From an uncultured Fibrobacter sp. (GTDB lineage Bacteria > Fibrobacterota > Fibrobacteria > Fibrobacterales > Fibrobacteraceae): a stretch of DNA of 56,356 nucleotides. The DNA is taken from positions 1-56,356 of the forward strand of contig CAMIWK010000002.1 of assembly GCA_946402415.1 (NCBI GenBank), read 5' to 3'. The translations under genes were made by a program, and so were the position numbers. This document shows, in pieces, positions 36,473 through 55,321 of the stretch. Each line of letters begins with the position of its first letter. Position 1 is the first letter of the stretch. Under the pieces are notes generated by a model. It saw only the letters and a list, made by a program, of their open reading frames with translations, ran no database searches and was not told the origin of the DNA.

Positions 36473-38881
36473 CTACTTGAACGTGGCCGTAAAGGTTGCT
36501 CCGTCCGAAATCGTGACAATACGGGGATTGTCCTTATTCTTGTCATTCCAGCCGGTAAACGCTGCACCTGCCGCAGGTACCGCCGTCAGCTCCATCGTGT
36601 TCTTAGAGAAGAACTTACCCGTGTAAGAACTAGGCAGTTTGCGGCCCTCCATCAGCACAGAGCCATTTCCAGAGGCGCTAATGCTGACCGATACCAGGTC
36701 CCCTACGCCAAATTGACTCTTGTAATCGCTAACGAAAGTCTTATCGCGGTTCTCCGCCCACGTCTTCATGCAGGAGCCCGATATGCTGAACTCACCCTCA
36801 CAGGCGTTGTGGTACCACCTTCTCGGAAAAGCCTTCTGGTCCCTGGACGTTTCATCACTGATTAGGGTCGACGCCATGGAACTCAAAATAGACTTGACAC
36901 GGGCAGAATTGACATAATCATTGAACAGCAGTGCAGAGCGGTTGATAAACAGGCGCTTGAAATTTGAGTTCTTTATCAGGTGGTTGAAAACATTGGCAAA
37001 GGAGCGGGTGTCGGAATAGCCATATCCCTTACAGCCGGCTTTGGCAATCCAGCTAAACATATTGGTTCCAGTAGCACTCTCATTTGTAACAAACTCACTG
37101 CAAGCAGGCCACATCCAATCCATACCATGGTCCATATCATAGACCATAAACTTGTAGGGATGATCGGGACTACGCCAGGCACGGACATTATTCCCGGGCC
37201 AGTCCGCGTTATGCATATAGATTTCAAAGGCCATGTAATCGGCAAAGTTGCCCACATCCATCATGGTCTTCAGCGTAGCATAGTCGGCATCGGAAACAGC
37301 ATCTGCCTTAATTGCCAAATCAAGCATATCCGTGTATGTCTTTGTAGAATTCGTATTGCTGGTAATGTCATGACCCAAATGCTTGATAACTTCTACCGAG
37401 TTGGCATCTATCCCGTAATTGGTTTCTACATAATGCTTGTTGAACCGCTCCCGCATATCGTGGATACCAAAATACTTGCCGTTATAGAAAACCACCACCT
37501 GACGGCTACGCTGGTAATCCACTTCTGTCCCTTCCAAAAGGGCTCCCGCCATAGCGTCCATCAGGTAGTCGCTCACAAAGCGGTTTCCGTTATTGCGCAA
37601 GTTGAATCCCCTGAAGGTGTTGGCGGTCTCCTTGCGAGTTTCGAACAGCGGGTAATGAATCTTTCCGTCCTGGTAGTCTTCACGCATGACGATGCCTACG
37701 GACTTCTTGTCTTCTAGACGGCTGTAGCCGCCCATCAGGGAAAGACCGGCATCCACATCAAATGCGGAACCATCGGAACTGCTTCCGTTTTCAAAATATT
37801 CCACGTGTACAGGGAACTCTACATCCTGGTACATAGCGGAATTATAGTTCGGCGTACCTCCGGCAAGGCCCTGGGTATAATACTTGCTCAAGAAAGTCGG
37901 ATCCACGCTGATAGCCACTACCGGCATCTGCACGGTCTCGCCAACAAAGATAGTCCTGGTTACCACTTCCTTGGTAAGGGTTCCGCTCTTGAAGGCGGAA
38001 CAACGGAGAGAGGTGTTCTTGGTAATGGTCATTGGGGCGTTAAAGACTTCGGAAGACGAGGTGGGAGCCGAGCCGTCCTTGGTGCAGCGGAGGGTCACGC
38101 CAGATTCCAGAGTCGGCGGATTGATGGTCACGCCCTTTTCATCGTAGAAACCCGCCTTGATGGAACTCAAATCTACCGACGGAGCCATAGCGTCATAAGC
38201 GGTAGCATCCGTATTCTTTCTCTCAGGAGTTGACGTTCCGAAATACTTCCAGTCTCCTCCATCTACAATACCCCAGCTAACTCCGCCGGCAAGTTCCGGA
38301 TAGTCCGCAGAATCTCGGATACCGTTGCTCGGGTCAACCAGGTAAATCGTACCCCCGCTCTTATCCAGCTTCCAGTTGGTATGGGTACGGCTATGCAGTA
38401 CGTTCTTGTCGGCATCTACGGAATCCTTGATTCCATAGACCGTCGCAATATCTTTCTTGTCGCAAAAAACCGTACGGAAAGACTTGGGCGGAATCCATTC
38501 GTTGCCAAACACCCACTTCTTGGGTTCCTTCAGGTTCTCTACAAGAGCGTAACCCTTGAGATTCGCCGTATCTCCACCCGAATTATATATTTCCACCCAG
38601 GAGGGGTCATCGCCATCCCTGTCCATCCAGTCCAGATTGAGAGACGCAATCTCCGTAATATGCAGGGCGGAATTGCCCACATACCGCAGTGTGGTATCCG
38701 GATAAATTCGCACGGTATCCCTAATCGTGTCGCCAGTCAGGGAATCAATTATAACATCTCCGTCGGATGGAACTTTCTTTTCCTCAACGATGACTGTTCC
38801 TGATCCATTGGAACACGCAAAATAGCAAGCCATACAAAACACAGCCAGGTATATCTTTACTGCAAAAGACCAAATACGCAT
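36473..38881 (-). CDS. CotH kinase family surface lipoprotein with lamin-tail and InlB-like domains
   Basis: An 802-residue exported protein. N-terminal signal (VFCMACYFAC-SNG) with probable lipid attachment, although the lipobox is imperfect. Domains: lamin-tail domain at about 70-185 (ITEIASLNLDW, SWVEIYNSGG, LDKSGGTIYLVD); a chitobiase/hexosaminidase-type beta domain at about 230-310 (GVTLRCTKDGSAPTSSS); a CotH kinase-like domain at about 315-690 with 'YFGIHDMRERFNKHYVETNYGI' and 'YKFMVYDMDHGMDW' (catalytic D-x-D/H-G region); and a C-terminal InlB-B-repeat-like segment at about 735-802 (GNGSVLMEGRKLPSSYTG, TAVPAAGAAFTGW). CotH proteins phosphorylate proteins in spore coats; exported versions are poorly known. 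The antisense ORFs at 36980-38233 are shadows. Confidence 0.83.
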   Translation of the reverse strand: MRIWSFAVKIYLAVFCMACYFACSNGSGTVIVEEKKVPSDGDVIIDSLTGDTIRDTVRIYPDTTLRYVGNSALHITEIASLNLDWMDRDGDDPSWVEIYNSGGDTANLKGYALVENLKEPKKWVFGNEWIPPKSFRTVFCDKKDIATVYGIKDSVDADKNVLHSRTHTNWKLDKSGGTIYLVDPSNGIRDSADYPELAGGVSWGIVDGGDWKYFGTSTPERKNTDATAYDAMAPSVDLSSIKAGFYDEKGVTINPPTLESGVTLRCTKDGSAPTSSSEVFNAPMTITKNTSLRCSAFKSGTLTKEVVTRTIFVGETVQMPVVAISVDPTFLSKYYTQGLAGGTPNYNSAMYQDVEFPVHVEYFENGSSSDGSAFDVDAGLSLMGGYSRLEDKKSVGIVMREDYQDGKIHYPLFETRKETANTFRGFNLRNNGNRFVSDYLMDAMAGALLEGTEVDYQRSRQVVVFYNGKYFGIHDMRERFNKHYVETNYGIDANSVEVIKHLGHDITSNTNSTKTYTDMLDLAIKADAVSDADYATLKTMMDVGNFADYMAFEIYMHNADWPGNNVRAWRSPDHPYKFMVYDMDHGMDWMWPACSEFVTNESATGTNMFSWIAKAGCKGYGYSDTRSFANVFNHLIKNSNFKRLFINRSALLFNDYVNSARVKSILSSMASTLISDETSRDQKAFPRRWYHNACEGEFSISGSCMKTWAENRDKTFVSDYKSQFGVGDLVSVSISASGNGSVLMEGRKLPSSYTGKFFSKNTMELTAVPAAGAAFTGWNDKNKDNPRIVTISDGATFTATFK

Positions 38882-42035: not shown

Positions 42036-42069
42036 AAAAAAAAGCGTCTTCTTGTATAGACGCTTTTTT
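42036..42069 (-). terminator. Terminator after the surface lipoprotein gene
   Basis: 11-bp stem AAAAAAGCGTC / GACGCTTTTTT with a 10-base loop. T runs flank it on both strands, and on the reverse strand it separates the lipoprotein gene from comF. Confidence 0.9.
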
Positions 42070-42122: not shown

Positions 42123-43394
42123 CTACTTTTGCAGGCGGAATATTTTCACGTCCTTGATGTAGAAAGTTCTCTCCTTGCTACCCAAATTCAACTCAAATCT
42201 GGCAAAAGGAGTGCTCTCTCTCGGGACAAACTCTATTTCCACAGACTTGCTCGAGGTTCCCACATCCACATGTTTCTGGAAACCGATTGTCTGATAATCA
42301 TCGTAGGCCCCAATCCTTGCAGTAATTTGACCATCGACATCGGACCTGATATTGAAAACACACCTGTATTTCTTGCCGGCGAGCAAAGCCACGTTCTCTT
42401 GAATAAGCTGGACACTGTAAGAGAACTTGCCTCCACTAGTCACCTGGATTTTGGCGTAGTGCGTTCCATCGGAACCCTTTTCTACGGAAGCCTTCGAGCT
42501 TCCACCAAATTGGTCAAAAACAATCCAGCTATAGAAATCGTTAGAAAAATCTCCGTTCTTGATGGTATTATCGCTCATCGCTCCAATGATTCCTTCCCAA
42601 ATATCCAAGACATACGCCTCGGCAACATCGCCATCGGTATCGGAGTAGCCGTACCGCAATGGCCTGAAGCTGGAGATAAACTGCTGGTTCAGTTCTTTCC
42701 ATATAGGAGCATTATGGGTAGCGTCAAGATAAACCGCGCCGTCTTCGGCAACCTTCACCTTGGAGAAATCAATTCCATCTACAAAGTAGCGAGGGAAGAA
42801 CACCACGGACAGGTTGGCAATGCTATCCGATACCTTTTCTATCTGGGAATAATGGTACCGGAGTTCAAACTGTTCGAGCCAAGCCAGAGAATACTGCACA
42901 GGCACGTACTCGCCGTCAAGCAGGAGTTTTCCATAAACCTTGGGTGTATGCTTGGCAGGTCTGAACGAAACGCCCATTTCTTTCAGATAACCCTTGTCTT
43001 CTAGACGGATGTTCTTGAAGGGTTCTTCCACTACAGAAGCGTCGGTAAAGGATACCTTCAGAGATGAATCCGCAAGGTCCTCGCCAGGCCACAGCTGTAC
43101 GCCCTTCGACATGTCAATATTCACGTCCACATAATAGCTGGAGTAAGAACGGACCTCAAAGAAATCCAAGGCGAAAGAATCCAACAGCAAGGGCTCATCC
43201 TTGGCTGCGGAGGTCTTGGAAAGAGAATTGGTGGAAACTTCGGAATAATCTACGGAGAAATCCGCCGTAAAAGCCATGGACGGATTCCCGATTTCAATTC
43301 CCGCCACAGATTTATCATCAGAACAAGCGACAAAAGCCATGGCAGCATATGCCATAGTCAACAAAGACCCAAATTTAAACCCCACAAAGCGCAT
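42123..43394 (-). CDS. GIEIGNPS-type lipoprotein with C-terminal carbohydrate-binding-like domain
   Basis: A 423-residue lipoprotein; signal peptide ends AFVAC-SDD. Directly after it comes 'VAGIEIGNPSMAF', a motif I recognise from a large Fibrobacter lipoprotein family. The middle (about 60-280) is beta-rich and unclassified. The last about 145 residues form a CBM4/9-like jelly roll: 'IKNGDFSNDFYSWIVF', 'YSVQLIQENVALLAGKKYRCVFNIRSD' (in part), 'RIGAYDDYQTIGF', 'FARFELNLGSKERTFYIKDVKIF'. Likely surface-exposed, polysaccharide- or glycan-binding (inference). The start overlaps the stop of the TIGR02147 gene as TAATG, so it is translated from the same message. Confidence 0.8.
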   Translation of the reverse strand: MRFVGFKFGSLLTMAYAAMAFVACSDDKSVAGIEIGNPSMAFTADFSVDYSEVSTNSLSKTSAAKDEPLLLDSFALDFFEVRSYSSYYVDVNIDMSKGVQLWPGEDLADSSLKVSFTDASVVEEPFKNIRLEDKGYLKEMGVSFRPAKHTPKVYGKLLLDGEYVPVQYSLAWLEQFELRYHYSQIEKVSDSIANLSVVFFPRYFVDGIDFSKVKVAEDGAVYLDATHNAPIWKELNQQFISSFRPLRYGYSDTDGDVAEAYVLDIWEGIIGAMSDNTIKNGDFSNDFYSWIVFDQFGGSSKASVEKGSDGTHYAKIQVTSGGKFSYSVQLIQENVALLAGKKYRCVFNIRSDVDGQITARIGAYDDYQTIGFQKHVDVGTSSKSVEIEFVPRESTPFARFELNLGSKERTFYIKDVKIFRLQK

Positions 43395-44242
43395 TACATT
43401 CCTCTGGTTAGGGGGAACAGCTGGATGTTGACCTGTACGACTTCGTCACCTTCTCCAACACTGGCAGAGAAATCTAGCAGTTCTTTGCGCATCAGTTGGA
43501 TCTGTTTTTTCAAATTGGGGAAATCTTTGCGCCTAATACTGAATGTAAGGGCCGAAAAATCTCGTTCCTGGCTTGCCAGTTCGGACAACTTATCTTTGGA
43601 CATAGAAAGCATCTGCTGGTGGTACTGCTTTACCATCAAGTCCTGAACCTCATCATCGGTAGTAATCATGGGGTCACGCTGGCGGAAACCGTTAGCCGTC
43701 TTGACTACAAGCCCCAGTTCCTGGAGCAGCTGGAAAGATTCCTGCACCTGGGCGGGAGTGACCTTGCCCTGGAGCCGCTTGGATACCCAGTCGGGAATGG
43801 GCCTGAAGCCCTTTAGGGAGACCATCTCCAGAATGACGGAATGATGCCATTCCCTGAAAATACGGAGCTGAGCCTGATCCATCTTGTGGAGCTTGGAATG
43901 GGGGCTCGCCTTGACCAGCTGCTCGTAATAGACCTTCTTTTCTTCATCGTCGGTAGCCTGGTTAAAGAATACCAGGTTCTCGAAGTAGGTAGCCCGTTGC
44001 TTGATAAGCCCGAGACCGTGTATAAGCTTGGTGACGGTGCTCTTGGTAATGTTTCGCTTGCCGTCAATGGTCAATTTCAGGTGTGCATGGCTGGAAAGGC
44101 CCGCTTTTTCAGCGAAAAAGCGCAAACTGAAGGCTGGCTGGGTCTTCTTCTTATAATCGTAATAGTCCCGAAGATACACGCGGAAATTCGTGTATTGCAA
44201 CACGTCGGGTTCTATCAATTTTTCATTTTCTCCATTGTCCAT
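43394..44242 (-). CDS. TIGR02147 family protein (winged-helix-type regulator, Fibrobacter paralogous family)
   Basis: A 282-residue cytoplasmic protein. 'NFRVYLRDYYDYKKKTQPAFSLRFFAEKAGLSSHAHLKLTIDGKRNITKSTVTKLIHGLGL' (in part) is the family signature and looks like an XRE-type helix-turn-helix. The remainder (DUF4423) contains 'HHSVILEMVSLKGF', 'PAQVQESFQLLQELGLVV' (a winged-helix-like unit) and a C-terminal beta strand 'VVQVNIQLFPL'. Known as a highly expanded family in Fibrobacter succinogenes; members are also scattered in Bdellovibrio and others. It is the first gene of a two-gene unit with the GIEIGNPS lipoprotein, one base overlapping. A role in controlling its own partner lipoprotein is inference. 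Confidence 0.85.
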   Translation of the reverse strand: MDNGENEKLIEPDVLQYTNFRVYLRDYYDYKKKTQPAFSLRFFAEKAGLSSHAHLKLTIDGKRNITKSTVTKLIHGLGLIKQRATYFENLVFFNQATDDEEKKVYYEQLVKASPHSKLHKMDQAQLRIFREWHHSVILEMVSLKGFRPIPDWVSKRLQGKVTPAQVQESFQLLQELGLVVKTANGFRQRDPMITTDDEVQDLMVKQYHQQMLSMSKDKLSELASQERDFSALTFSIRRKDFPNLKKQIQLMRKELLDFSASVGEGDEVVQVNIQLFPLTRGM

Positions 44243-44287
44243 GCCACAAAAATAGAAGTATAGGGGGGCAAAAGCACTACCGTTTGG

Positions 44288-44881
44288 TTAATTATCGTTT
44301 ACCCAAGTAACCACGTCCCCAGCAAGCTTCGAAAGCCGGAGGTGGTCATGGAACTTGCCGTTCAGGTACTCAAATTCACGGCAAACGCCCTCTTCCTGGA
44401 ATCCACAGCGGCGGGCAACCCCGATACTGGCGGAATTCTGAACTGCAGCGGTGATTTCTAGGCGGTTCAGCCCTAAAGTTTCGAAGCAGAACCTGCTTAA
44501 AATGCTCAGGGACTGCGTCGCGAGGCCGCGGCCCGTGTACGCTTGCCCAAGCCAGTAGCTGACAGTGGCCGAGCGGTGCTCCAAATGGACCCAACCGATA
44601 AAGATGCAGCCCGCAAGTTCAAGGCCTGTCGAAGTTCTCTCGAAAATGCCCCAGCAAGCGCCGTTTCCCATCTGGGCCTGCATTTCCCAGGTTTCCAGAC
44701 GGGACACCACGTCTTCTTCGGAACGGCAATCGGGGGACCAGGGCAGGAACCGCCCCAGATGTTCCCGGGAGGAATCGATCAGGCGATAAAGCGAGGCGGC
44801 GTCCGGCTCGTGCAACGGTCGGAGAACCACGCGTTCGCCTGGCAGTTCCGTTTCGGGAATTTCTTCTAACAGCTCATTCAT
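44288..44881 (-). CDS. GNAT family N-acetyltransferase (RimJ/RimL type)
   Basis: A 197-residue acetyltransferase. 'VVLRPLHEPDAASLYRLI', 'FLPWSPDCRSEEDV', 'ELAGCIFIGWVHLEHRSATVSYWLGQAYTGRGLATQSL' (in part; the Q/R-x-x-G-x-G/A acetyl-CoA loop is here Y-T-G-R-G-L-A-T) and 'RLEITAAVQNSASIGVARRCGF' are the RimL-like pattern, which acetylates N-termini of proteins such as ribosomal L7/L12, or small molecules. Substrate unknown. Start codon ATG 44881; single gene between the TIGR02147 gene and tRNA-Leu. Confidence 0.9.
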   Translation of the reverse strand: MNELLEEIPETELPGERVVLRPLHEPDAASLYRLIDSSREHLGRFLPWSPDCRSEEDVVSRLETWEMQAQMGNGACWGIFERTSTGLELAGCIFIGWVHLEHRSATVSYWLGQAYTGRGLATQSLSILSRFCFETLGLNRLEITAAVQNSASIGVARRCGFQEEGVCREFEYLNGKFHDHLRLSKLAGDVVTWVNDN

Positions 44882-52588: not shown

Positions 52589-55321
52589 ATGAAGAATCCT
52601 TCCATTAAAAAGAACGTAACGTCACCCTGGATTCTATCGGGGCTGCGCCCCTCCAGAATGACAGCAGTGATAGGGTCTGTTTTCACCCTCCTCCTGGCCG
52701 CCTGCGGCGATGACAGCAGTAACAATGCCGAAGAAAAAATCGAGGTCGTTTCATCTATTGATAAGTTAGATGACTGTACTGACAAACTTGAAGGTGACAC
52801 GGTCTTTGTCAAAAGCGAGAAGGCAGACTACATTTGCAAAAGCGGCAAGTGGGTCAACGCTGATTCCAGCGCAGCGCAGTCTGCTAAAGATTCTTCTTAT
52901 AAACAGGATTCTTCTGCCTACATTCAGCCCCCGGTGGTGGCCATCAAGAACAAGTCCATCACAGGATTCTCCCAGAAAGGGCCCTTTGTGACCGGTACTG
53001 CCGTAAAAGTTTACGAACTAGACGGCAAAACATACGCCCAGACCGGCAAAAGCTTCACCGGTAAAATCACAAGCGATGATGGCAAATTCAAGGTGTCAAA
53101 TGTATCCCTTGCAAGCCAGTACGCCCTGCTAGAGGCAAACGGCTACTTCCGTAACGAAATCACTGGTGAAAAATCCAAGGGCGCCATTACCCTTTATGCC
53201 ATAACCGACCTTTCTGACCGCAAGAACGTGAACATCAACCTGCTCACCCACCTGGAATACGAGCGCGTCCTTTATCTGGTGGGTACGGGCATCAACGTTC
53301 CTGCAGCCAAGAAACAAGCCGAAGCCGAAATTCTCAAAGCTTTTGGAATCAGCGGTAATTTTGCAAGTTCAGAGGACCTGGACATTTTCAGCAAGGGCGA
53401 GGGAAACGCCGCCCTGCTTGCCATTAGTGTAATGATGCTCAGAGGAACAGGGTATGACAGTGAAAGATCATCCGAAGCGGAGCTGACCGAACGCCTGGCG
53501 AAGTTTGCTGCCGACATAGAGAAAGACGGCACCTGGGATGATGAAAAGACCAAGGCGGCAATTGCGGACTGGATCCGTGAAGAACTTGCGCCTGTCAGGG
53601 GCGGAATATCAATGTGCGGAGGACTATCCTACGACATTTTTCATTTTTACGACATCCGTGAAAATATTGAAGAATGGGAACTGGGCGATGTTCCCGATTT
53701 TGAAAAGTATGCGAGAACTTTCTGGTACAATAATTACGGCCTTGGGGACTGCAACAAGAACAACGAAGGAAAAATCCAAAGTGTAGCAAACCGCGACAGC
53801 GAAAGCTACGATTACCGTCAATTTATCTGCGAAGACGGATTTTGGAGGGTTGCAACCGATTTAGAAAGAGATTTTTTCAAATTTGGAAAAGAAAAGAAGG
53901 GCAGCGATGGAGAATTGTGGGTTGGCCCCGCAACCGAAATAGTCTACAAATACGATGTAGAAAGTGGGAAGTGGGGCGATGCAGATGAATTAGATAAGCG
54001 CTTTCTAGAGGAAGGGTATGACTTTGGCGGGTGCACACACAAACGAGAGGGAGAAGTGGTCACTGTTGAAGAAACAAAGTGTTCTGGTTCTAATAGTTAC
54101 TGTGATGAATACGGATGTTATGAAAATTGTCCAAAAGGTCCTGTCAACTATGTTTGCGAAAATTATGATAGAAATGGTATGTATGGCAGCTGCGGTATAT
54201 ATGTTTGGGAAGAACAAGAAATGGATATTCCTGCAGCAATCAACTTCCTCTCCGGAAACAAGGGAACCGATGGCCAACTTTGGACAAGCCAGATTTGGAC
54301 AAACTACGGCATTTCCACAGGAAAAACATATATATATGACGAGGGTCTGGACAAGTGGCTAGTTGCAAACAGCAGCGGCTATTACGAAGATTCCATAGGG
54401 GTCTGCACATCCAAACGCAGAGGCGAAACCAAAGCAACCACAAATGATTACGGTGATGATTGGGCTTTGATATGTAAAGAAACTGGCGTACCTGATTACG
54501 GGCAATACTCCGAATACTATAGTCCGTTCAGTTGGACTTATGCAGATGAAAACGAAGTCCTCTATGGCATATGCGACCCATCAAATGAAGGGCAACTCAG
54601 TGATGACCTTGCATACATCTGTTCCGATGGTCGCTGGAAAAAACCGACAGAAAATGAAATGTTACGAGCGATAAAGGAAAAGCATTGGGGTCCTTGTAAT
54701 TCATCAAATGATGGTCAACTCAGTAGCGACGGAACACAAAAATGCCAGGACGGGCTTTGGCATTTCTATGCAGGGCTAATCGATGATTTTGAAGACGACA
54801 ACAACGTTGCAGAAAATGCGTATCCCGGCATCTGGTTTCTTGGTAAAAGTGACAACGTATCTTTTTCCAATTCCCTAGACGAATCTAGATGGTCTTACGA
54901 TGTGGTTAGAACAGCAGGTAAAAATTCCTATGCGGCAATGGAAAATATTTCCGGTATAACCCATAGCGATTCTCACGGGTCCGAGTCTTATGCAATCATT
55001 GGATTAACTTTTCTATATAAAACATATGGTATGCTAGGAATACTCAGCAACTGTTCCTCTATCCAGTATGATTACAAGGGTTCGGGACACACAGTTGATT
55101 TTACATTTGGAGGCGGTAATAATTTCGGATGGGGGCCCTATGTCAATTCCTCAACCGAATGGAAAACGATTACTCTTTCATCGGAGGATATTGGTACTTA
55201 CGGTGGCAGCTCCATTGATTGGAACCAAGTCACAGATTTAAGTTGGAGCGTTAACTCCATCCTTTCCCAAGAAAACATCGGCACCTACCTTTACATCGAC
55301 AACGTAAAGTGCATCCGGTAG
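52589..55321 (+). CDS. Large surface lipoprotein with two-Cys repeats and a C-terminal carbohydrate-binding-like domain
   Basis: A 910-residue lipoprotein. ATG at 52589 has GAGGA six bases ahead. The signal peptide (residues 1-39, lipobox LLLAAC) has its n-region interrupted by a 14-codon segment from a palindromic repeat at 52621-52662. Mature parts: a two-Cys unit at about 60-90 (DDCTDKLEG...YICKSGKW); a conserved Fibrobacter-type domain at about 115-340 (ITGFSQKGPFVTGTAVKVYEL, SQYALLEANGYFRNEITGE, VNINLLTHLEYERVLYLVGTG); four or more two-Cys units at about 380-725 (GICDPSNEGQ..., GPCNSSNDGQ...); and a CBM11-like jelly roll at about 730-910 (DDFEDDNNVAENAYPGIWF ... YLYIDNVKCI). Probably glycan-binding on the surface (inference). 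Flanked by two vsr copies. Confidence 0.82.
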   Translation: MKNPSIKKNVTSPWILSGLRPSRMTAVIGSVFTLLLAACGDDSSNNAEEKIEVVSSIDKLDDCTDKLEGDTVFVKSEKADYICKSGKWVNADSSAAQSAKDSSYKQDSSAYIQPPVVAIKNKSITGFSQKGPFVTGTAVKVYELDGKTYAQTGKSFTGKITSDDGKFKVSNVSLASQYALLEANGYFRNEITGEKSKGAITLYAITDLSDRKNVNINLLTHLEYERVLYLVGTGINVPAAKKQAEAEILKAFGISGNFASSEDLDIFSKGEGNAALLAISVMMLRGTGYDSERSSEAELTERLAKFAADIEKDGTWDDEKTKAAIADWIREELAPVRGGISMCGGLSYDIFHFYDIRENIEEWELGDVPDFEKYARTFWYNNYGLGDCNKNNEGKIQSVANRDSESYDYRQFICEDGFWRVATDLERDFFKFGKEKKGSDGELWVGPATEIVYKYDVESGKWGDADELDKRFLEEGYDFGGCTHKREGEVVTVEETKCSGSNSYCDEYGCYENCPKGPVNYVCENYDRNGMYGSCGIYVWEEQEMDIPAAINFLSGNKGTDGQLWTSQIWTNYGISTGKTYIYDEGLDKWLVANSSGYYEDSIGVCTSKRRGETKATTNDYGDDWALICKETGVPDYGQYSEYYSPFSWTYADENEVLYGICDPSNEGQLSDDLAYICSDGRWKKPTENEMLRAIKEKHWGPCNSSNDGQLSSDGTQKCQDGLWHFYAGLIDDFEDDNNVAENAYPGIWFLGKSDNVSFSNSLDESRWSYDVVRTAGKNSYAAMENISGITHSDSHGSESYAIIGLTFLYKTYGMLGILSNCSSIQYDYKGSGHTVDFTFGGGNNFGWGPYVNSSTEWKTITLSSEDIGTYGGSSIDWNQVTDLSWSVNSILSQENIGTYLYIDNVKCIR
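52621..52662 (+). repeat. 42-bp palindromic repeat inserted in the signal-peptide coding region
   Basis: Imperfect inverted repeat: GTCA / TGAC, CTGGA / TCCAG, GGGGC / GCCCC around TGC. Its length, 42 bp, is exactly 14 codons, so the frame is kept. Without it the N-terminus would read MKNPSIKKNVIGSVFTLLLAACG, a normal lipoprotein signal (20 residues shown without the last three is MKNPSIKKNVIGSVFTLLLA). Confidence 0.7.

Follow-up and report, generated by a model that had tools for sequence, protein, structure and literature searches.

TIGR02147 regulators paired with tagged lipoproteins in Fibrobacterota, and a candidate operator upstream of one such pair

Throughout the phylum Fibrobacterota, an uncharacterised family of regulators (TIGR02147) is tied one-to-one to lipoproteins with predicted export, and in the operon analysed here a testable candidate operator precedes the regulator gene. 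The two genes probably constitute a self-contained dicistronic module: the regulator would bind a private operator and control its own operon only, with one tagged lipoprotein as the output. Fibrobacter is a main rumen cellulose degrader, and if this reading is true, each cell would hold dozens of parallel modules, every one of them joining one switch to one surface protein. The DNA analysed (the window, 56,356 nt) is a whole contig from a genome of the genus Fibrobacter that is 62% complete and in which six TIGR02147 genes were found. The two genes and the parts of their products are the following:

43394..44242 (-), TIGR02147 / DUF4423 regulator, 282 aa (ORF and profile scores)
regulator residues ~17-101, N-terminal XRE-like helix-turn-helix (HTH; predicted structure)
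regulator residues ~119-221, C-terminal winged helix (predicted structure)
42123..43394 (-), 423-aa partner lipoprotein (signal peptide with lipobox read from the sequence)
43281..43301 (-), GIEIGNP, residues 32-38 of the lipoprotein, eight residues past the lipid cysteine (orthologue alignment)
42180..42569 (-), C-terminal CBM_4_9 carbohydrate-binding module, residues 276-405 of the lipoprotein (PF02018 and Foldseek)

The original prediction of a helix-turn-helix protein of the TIGR02147 family is borne out by the profile scores. The regulator reaches 330.6 bits against TIGR02147 (Fsuc_second; curated whole-protein cut-off 50 bits) over profile positions 2-271 of 272, and 130.3 bits against DUF4423 (PF14394; gathering score 30). 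It is a full-length member of a named but uncharacterised family. Two folds of the DNA-binding type are present in the predicted structure (AlphaFold2, pLDDT 85). The N-terminal part aligns to HigA/XRE structures and resembles C.AhdI and C.BclI (Z ~7), while the C-terminal part aligns to winged helices of the ArsR/MarR type (Z ~7-7.8); these resemblances exist at the domain level only, and the Foldseek comparison of the regulator model with the PDB gave no match under E 0.001.

The partner possesses a signal peptide that ends in the lipobox AFVAC with Cys24, a cysteine which is invariant in the alignment A6; the protein is classed as a lipoprotein, with predicted lipidation and export. Its C-terminal module scores 37.5 bits against PF02018 (gathering score 25.9) and belongs to that family, and its predicted CBM4 fold is matched by 3k4z, 3p6b and 4bj0 (E ~1e-11 to 1e-10). 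The lipoprotein with a GIEIGNP stretch and a glycan-binding-like domain had thus been correctly described. For the middle region, no Pfam or NCBIfam model was matched. Two distant orthologues of the window lipoprotein (L266:3800-4546 and L267:1951-2652) keep the stretch as AGTEVGNPE and have no CBM4 module. Since these partners retain the tag without the module, the glycan-binding module is an accessory part of the protein.

The lipoprotein reading frame begins within the stop codon of the regulator, and the following elements accompany the two genes:

43392..43396 (-), TAATG, regulator stop overlapping the lipoprotein start (sequence and orthologues)
43400..43405 (-), Shine-Dalgarno-like AGAGGA for the lipoprotein gene, within the last codons of the regulator (sequence and orthologues)
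42038..42069 (-), terminator-like hairpin with a T-rich tail, 3' of the lipoprotein gene (RNA fold)

The translational coupling proposed from TAATG agrees with its conservation: the TRATG overlap is preserved in 40/42 orthologous pairs, the junction CGAGGA(G/A)TGTRATG is conserved among the orthologues, and a regulator orthologue lies directly upstream in all 30 lipoprotein orthologues examined. The preserved overlap and the constant upstream neighbour argue that the arrangement did not arise by chance. Across orthologous loci the regulator is more conserved than the partner lipoprotein. The hairpin folds with -17.2 kcal/mol (z -4.3 versus shuffles); a consensus promoter/terminator scan gave no hit at the positions in question, the hairpin included. 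The regulator and lipoprotein genes would be co-transcribed as a dicistronic unit.

The same pairing recurs at the paralogous loci. In the complete Fibrobacter genome G005, a lipoprotein gene follows 27 of the 28 TIGR02147 genes at a distance of -17 to +11 nt, and the remaining gene has a divergent lipoprotein gene ~144 nt away. In a second complete genome, G044, the next gene encodes a lipoprotein in 29/30 copies examined. Across the genus, a downstream lipoprotein was found at 95 of 97 loci (94 by rule, L188 by hand), 36 of which are best matches per genome and largely orthologous, so that G005 and G044 are the fair units of comparison. The phylum sample (26 genomes, 25 genera, 14 families of Fibrobacterota) gave 28 paired loci among 29 evaluable ones (the lipobox rule scored 24 of them, inspection by eye the other 4), and the TIGR02147 loci in named GTDB records agree with the pairing. 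The background was taken from 1.2 Mb of stretches of G005, where the strict rule places a lipoprotein within 100 nt after 42/930 other genes (~4.5%) and after 12/17 TIGR02147 genes (17/17 by eye). Against this background the neighbours of TIGR02147 genes are not random, and the modular pairing that the original prediction had made conditional on its recurrence among paralogues does recur, in both complete genomes and in the phylum sample. In five further orthologues the lipoprotein gene lies 120-150 nt away on the opposite strand; this divergent arrangement retains the association of regulator and lipoprotein without coupling.

The family is present in all 61 genus genomes searched, with 6 to at least ~35 copies per genome, and in 157/168 genomes of the phylum; the number of TIGR02147 genes per genome reaches up to ~50. 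Zero matches were obtained in ten mostly well-covered genomes of two genera (G067-G074 and G089-G090), which are natural losses of TIGR02147 and a useful comparison.

The partners share a short tag just past the lipid cysteine. Their alignment yields the motif C-S-x(n)-(V/T)-A-G-x(2-4)-(E/D)-x-x-N, often followed by (S/T)-(I/V)-A. A motif common to the partners, as had been anticipated, does exist, but GIEIGNP is only the local variant of this looser motif and belongs to the orthologous group of the window. Within that group it occurs in 42/42 orthologues, three of them with one conservative substitution (GIEVGNP in L195 and L256, GTEIGNP in L268), compared with a mean column conservation of 62% for the whole lipoprotein. 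The GIEIGNP codons vary synonymously among orthologues; the constraint therefore acts on the peptide. A site embedded at the DNA level was considered and is excluded by the same synonymous variation.

The tag also predicts membership of the lipoprotein class. When a motif model was built from G044 and other genera, G005 being left out, and applied to the 249 lipobox candidates of the G005 sample, ranks 1 to 17 all went to TIGR02147-linked candidates, and rank 18 was one of a few tagged lipoproteins encoded downstream of a TIGR02147 array, at a distance of 2-6 kb. The tag is essentially confined to TIGR02147-linked lipoproteins in this sampled genome. In one array region (G005 C1 ~716000-729200; L130, L131), three regulator/lipoprotein pairs are succeeded by at least four more lipoproteins, which carry a weak tag, CSSxxSSVAGGDxEE, with no regulator gene interspersed among them. 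By eye, the tag is absent from six other lipoproteins of the window. A lipoprotein of 910 aa (52589-55321, +) without the tag and with no TIGR02147 neighbour contains an FSQKGPF stretch as in several TIGR02147-linked partners (VAGVxQKGPFV); this region is a domain common to linked and unlinked lipoproteins. Another untagged lipoprotein, of 802 aa (36473-38881, -), looks CotH-like by eye.

Beyond the tag, the partners are diverse in length (mostly ~190-660 aa) and in domains, with CarboxypepD_reg in 23/53 and CBM4 in only 2/53; laminin-G, LRR, Fib_succ_major, CBM6, pectate lyase and sulfatase-modifying-factor domains were also detected. The glycan-binding-like domain claimed for the system is hence present in the window partner as CBM4 but is not class-wide. 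The idea that the modules control alternative adhesins or respond to polysaccharides found no support.

Quite possibly, the tag directs the sorting or surface display of a dedicated lipoprotein class, whose regulators would control the class and never meet the tag. The known sorting and export signals of lipoproteins are located just past the lipid cysteine, which is where the tag sits, and unlinked Fibrobacter lipoproteins often begin with C(G/S)DDSSS instead. A general export route, however, should serve some unlinked lipoproteins as well, and almost none of these carry the tag. This explanation concerns the tag only and is compatible with the dicistronic module.

The candidate regulatory elements of the window operon lie between the regulator gene and the upstream GNAT acetyltransferase gene, which ends 45 nt from it, and within the end of the latter:

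44297..44312 (-), operator-like palindrome GGTTACTTGGGTAAAC, 16 bp, overlapping the final codons of the GNAT gene (orthologue comparison)
44249..44254 (-), -10-like hexamer TATTTT, 6 nt before the ATG (CTATNTT conserved in orthologues)

The palindrome, whose best form among the orthologues is GTTTACTTGAGTAAAC, was found upstream of the regulator in 39/42 orthologues, including those of other genera, where 0.025 would be expected per shuffled set. Its characteristic features are: (i) a distance of 49-50 nt from its centre to the -10 hexamer in all carriers except L268 (54 nt); (ii) near-constancy of this spacing also in orthologues with another distance to the ATG; (iii) retention where the flanking sequence differs, for instance in L041; (iv) privacy to the operon. 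In 7 of 8 genomes the strict pattern occurs once, always upstream of this regulator (reversed control 0); within the window the palindrome has no second occurrence, and in the window's genome the strict form is likewise the sole one, the genome-wide search having used the strict pattern, which weaker sites could escape. The position of the -10 hexamer, six nucleotides before the ATG, suggests a leaderless regulator mRNA with a transcript start near the ATG. The centre of the palindrome would then lie ~62 bp upstream of the transcription start (~-62), a spacing typical of class I activators and thereby in favour of positive autoregulation. In principle, the palindrome could be bound by another factor.

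In G005 and G044, other TIGR02147 genes are preceded by repeated elements which differ from gene to gene, for example GTATCATGAA, TGTATAGTAT and GTATTCCTGGAATAC. The repeat search is weak for a single locus and informative only when spacings are pooled. Among the pooled paralogues, exact 8-mer repeats numbered 12 at a spacing of 19-23 (0.5 expected, shuffle maximum 2) and 11 at a spacing of 69-74 (0.4 expected, shuffle maximum 3). Repeats at the characteristic spacings of ~21 and ~71 nt, scored by a strict rule, are found in 22/57 paralogue regions versus 13/236 intergenic controls (Fisher p 1e-9), the paralogue regions being more AT-rich than the controls; most of the 57 regions have no such repeats by this rule. 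Several paralogues have a near-consensus promoter, TTGACT-17-TATATT, and in many cases the proximal repeat stops 5-6 nt short of the -35. The repeats are compatible with each promoter having two or three regulator sites, whose sequence would differ by paralogue. Operator similarity and regulator similarity among the paralogues are not significantly correlated (permutation p 0.10-0.14).

The opposite sign of control is a somewhat doubtful alternative. Under negative autoregulation the regulator would keep its operon repressed, a ligand or the export status would relieve this, and the lipoprotein would be held at a constant level, giving a homeostat and not a switch. Near-consensus promoters such as those of the paralogues usually need no activator, and XRE/HigA-like folds are often repressors; in the window, on the other hand, the palindrome is clear of the promoter, with its centre at ~-62 and a near-constant spacing, which is unusual for simple repression.

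In the self-contained dicistronic module, as we reconstruct it from the sequence, the TIGR02147 regulator would bind a private operator before its own promoter and control no operon other than its own. The gene behind it would be translated by coupling, and its product would be exported as a presumably surface-exposed lipoprotein bearing the class-specific tag past the lipid anchor, so that each regulator would set the level of one tagged lipoprotein. Positive autoregulation is the favoured sign in the window and would make a switch that, once on, is inclined to remain so; repression at high regulator concentration may also occur. The cassette would have been duplicated to dozens of copies across Fibrobacterota, with operators and lipoprotein bodies diversified and the coupling and the tag kept.

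Such a system had been proposed as an undescribed one, and the literature searched contains no account of a TIGR02147-lipoprotein pairing, of the tag or of private operators. No mention of TIGR02147 was found in that search, and DUF4423 was mentioned once, in a Bdellovibrio proteome table. The 2011 Fibrobacter genome paper, on S85, reports few regulators near cellulase genes, leaves cellulase regulation unanswered and does not discuss TIGR02147 (PMC3079729).

By analogy, the module would work like the operons of restriction-modification (R-M) controller proteins, as an autoregulated operon of regulator and output; it is notable for its scale, together with the tag and the proposed private operators. 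The controllers C.PvuII, C.AhdI and C.BclI likewise have a small XRE HTH gene upstream of the output gene, palindromic operators before their own promoter and local autoregulation, the operator function and the autoregulation being putative in Fibrobacter; C proteins can act as bistable switches (PMC3695507). In contrast to these controllers, the output in Fibrobacter is a predicted exported lipoprotein and not an endonuclease, the regulator adds a C-terminal winged helix, and dozens of parallel copies exist per genome. No R-M genes are present at the window locus, where the neighbours are the GNAT acetyltransferase, the partner lipoprotein and a ComF-like gene, and the regulator is not an R-M controller.

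Among solved folds, HigA-type antitoxins come closest to the N-terminal domain (Z 8.8, a Z near 8 being common for HTH folds), and they have autoregulating operons as well. They differ from the window pair in their neighbourhood: the downstream gene here encodes a lipoprotein with CBM4, the upstream one a GNAT protein, and there is no toxin-like gene, which places the regulator outside this group. In PlcR/PapR and Rgg/SHP, systems of the RRNPP type, an HTH regulator adjoins the gene of its own exported peptide. The likeness to Fibrobacter, a cytoplasmic HTH regulator beside the gene of an exported partner, is one of arrangement only, whereas the Fibrobacter partner is a lipoprotein of ~190-660 aa (423 aa in the window) and not a short propeptide, and the C-terminal domain of the regulator is a predicted winged helix; the pair does not belong to this type.

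Outside Fibrobacterota, the plasmid of Bdellovibrio sp. HAGR004 (L220:4989-7286) contains a TIGR02147-like gene (by similarity, E 4e-7), which overlaps by ATGA a gene for a signal-peptide protein with the mature start AKVIGNGGNEIALDF; a gene for another signal-peptide protein follows. This single case, a lead, hints at a coupling to exported proteins that predates Fibrobacterota. A scan of genome contigs with the Bdellovibrio protein gave no relatives, the phage records searched contained no match, and a further contig scan for relatives returned Fibrobacterota only, so that the occurrence in other phyla rests on this one plasmid.

The confinement of the tag to TIGR02147 partners in the sampled genome, its constraint at the protein level and the regulator's C-terminal region, which has no assigned ligand, are points in favour of an export-sensing loop. 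In such a loop, the regulator would recognise the tag of the unexported prelipoprotein in the cytoplasm, and blocked export would alter operon transcription. The Bdellovibrio member, a single example, adds to this, since the exported protein to which it is coupled has a mature N-terminus rich in Gly and Asn. The tag could instead serve sorting or surface display, and the loop is unlikely. Extended to the whole family, the idea becomes distinctly improbable: dozens of parallel cytoplasmic regulators would each watch the export or fate of their own operon's lipoprotein through the tag peptide, forming a programmable and possibly bistable surface coat across the phylum, and perhaps in Bdellovibrionota with a different exported partner.

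That the pair is a selfish or hitch-hiking cassette, spread by duplication and adjacent without regulatory meaning, is very improbable: tandem arrays of three regulator/lipoprotein cassettes do occur in G005 and G044, but the palindrome is private to its operon and almost fixed in spacing, the pairing persists across 14 families, the divergent arrangement keeps the partner, and the regulator is more conserved than the partner.

An orthologous TIGR02147 subgroup (L221, L223, L226, L227, L229 and L076) has its tagged lipoprotein gene divergent, 120-150 nt off. At several loci of the L076 type the divergent partner is absent and no recognisable partner was seen, and the TIGR02147 loci L175 and L209 have no lipoprotein partner. 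A palindrome, CGTTGTTTCTAGACAACG, lies upstream in L076, and a near copy of it is present in L175.
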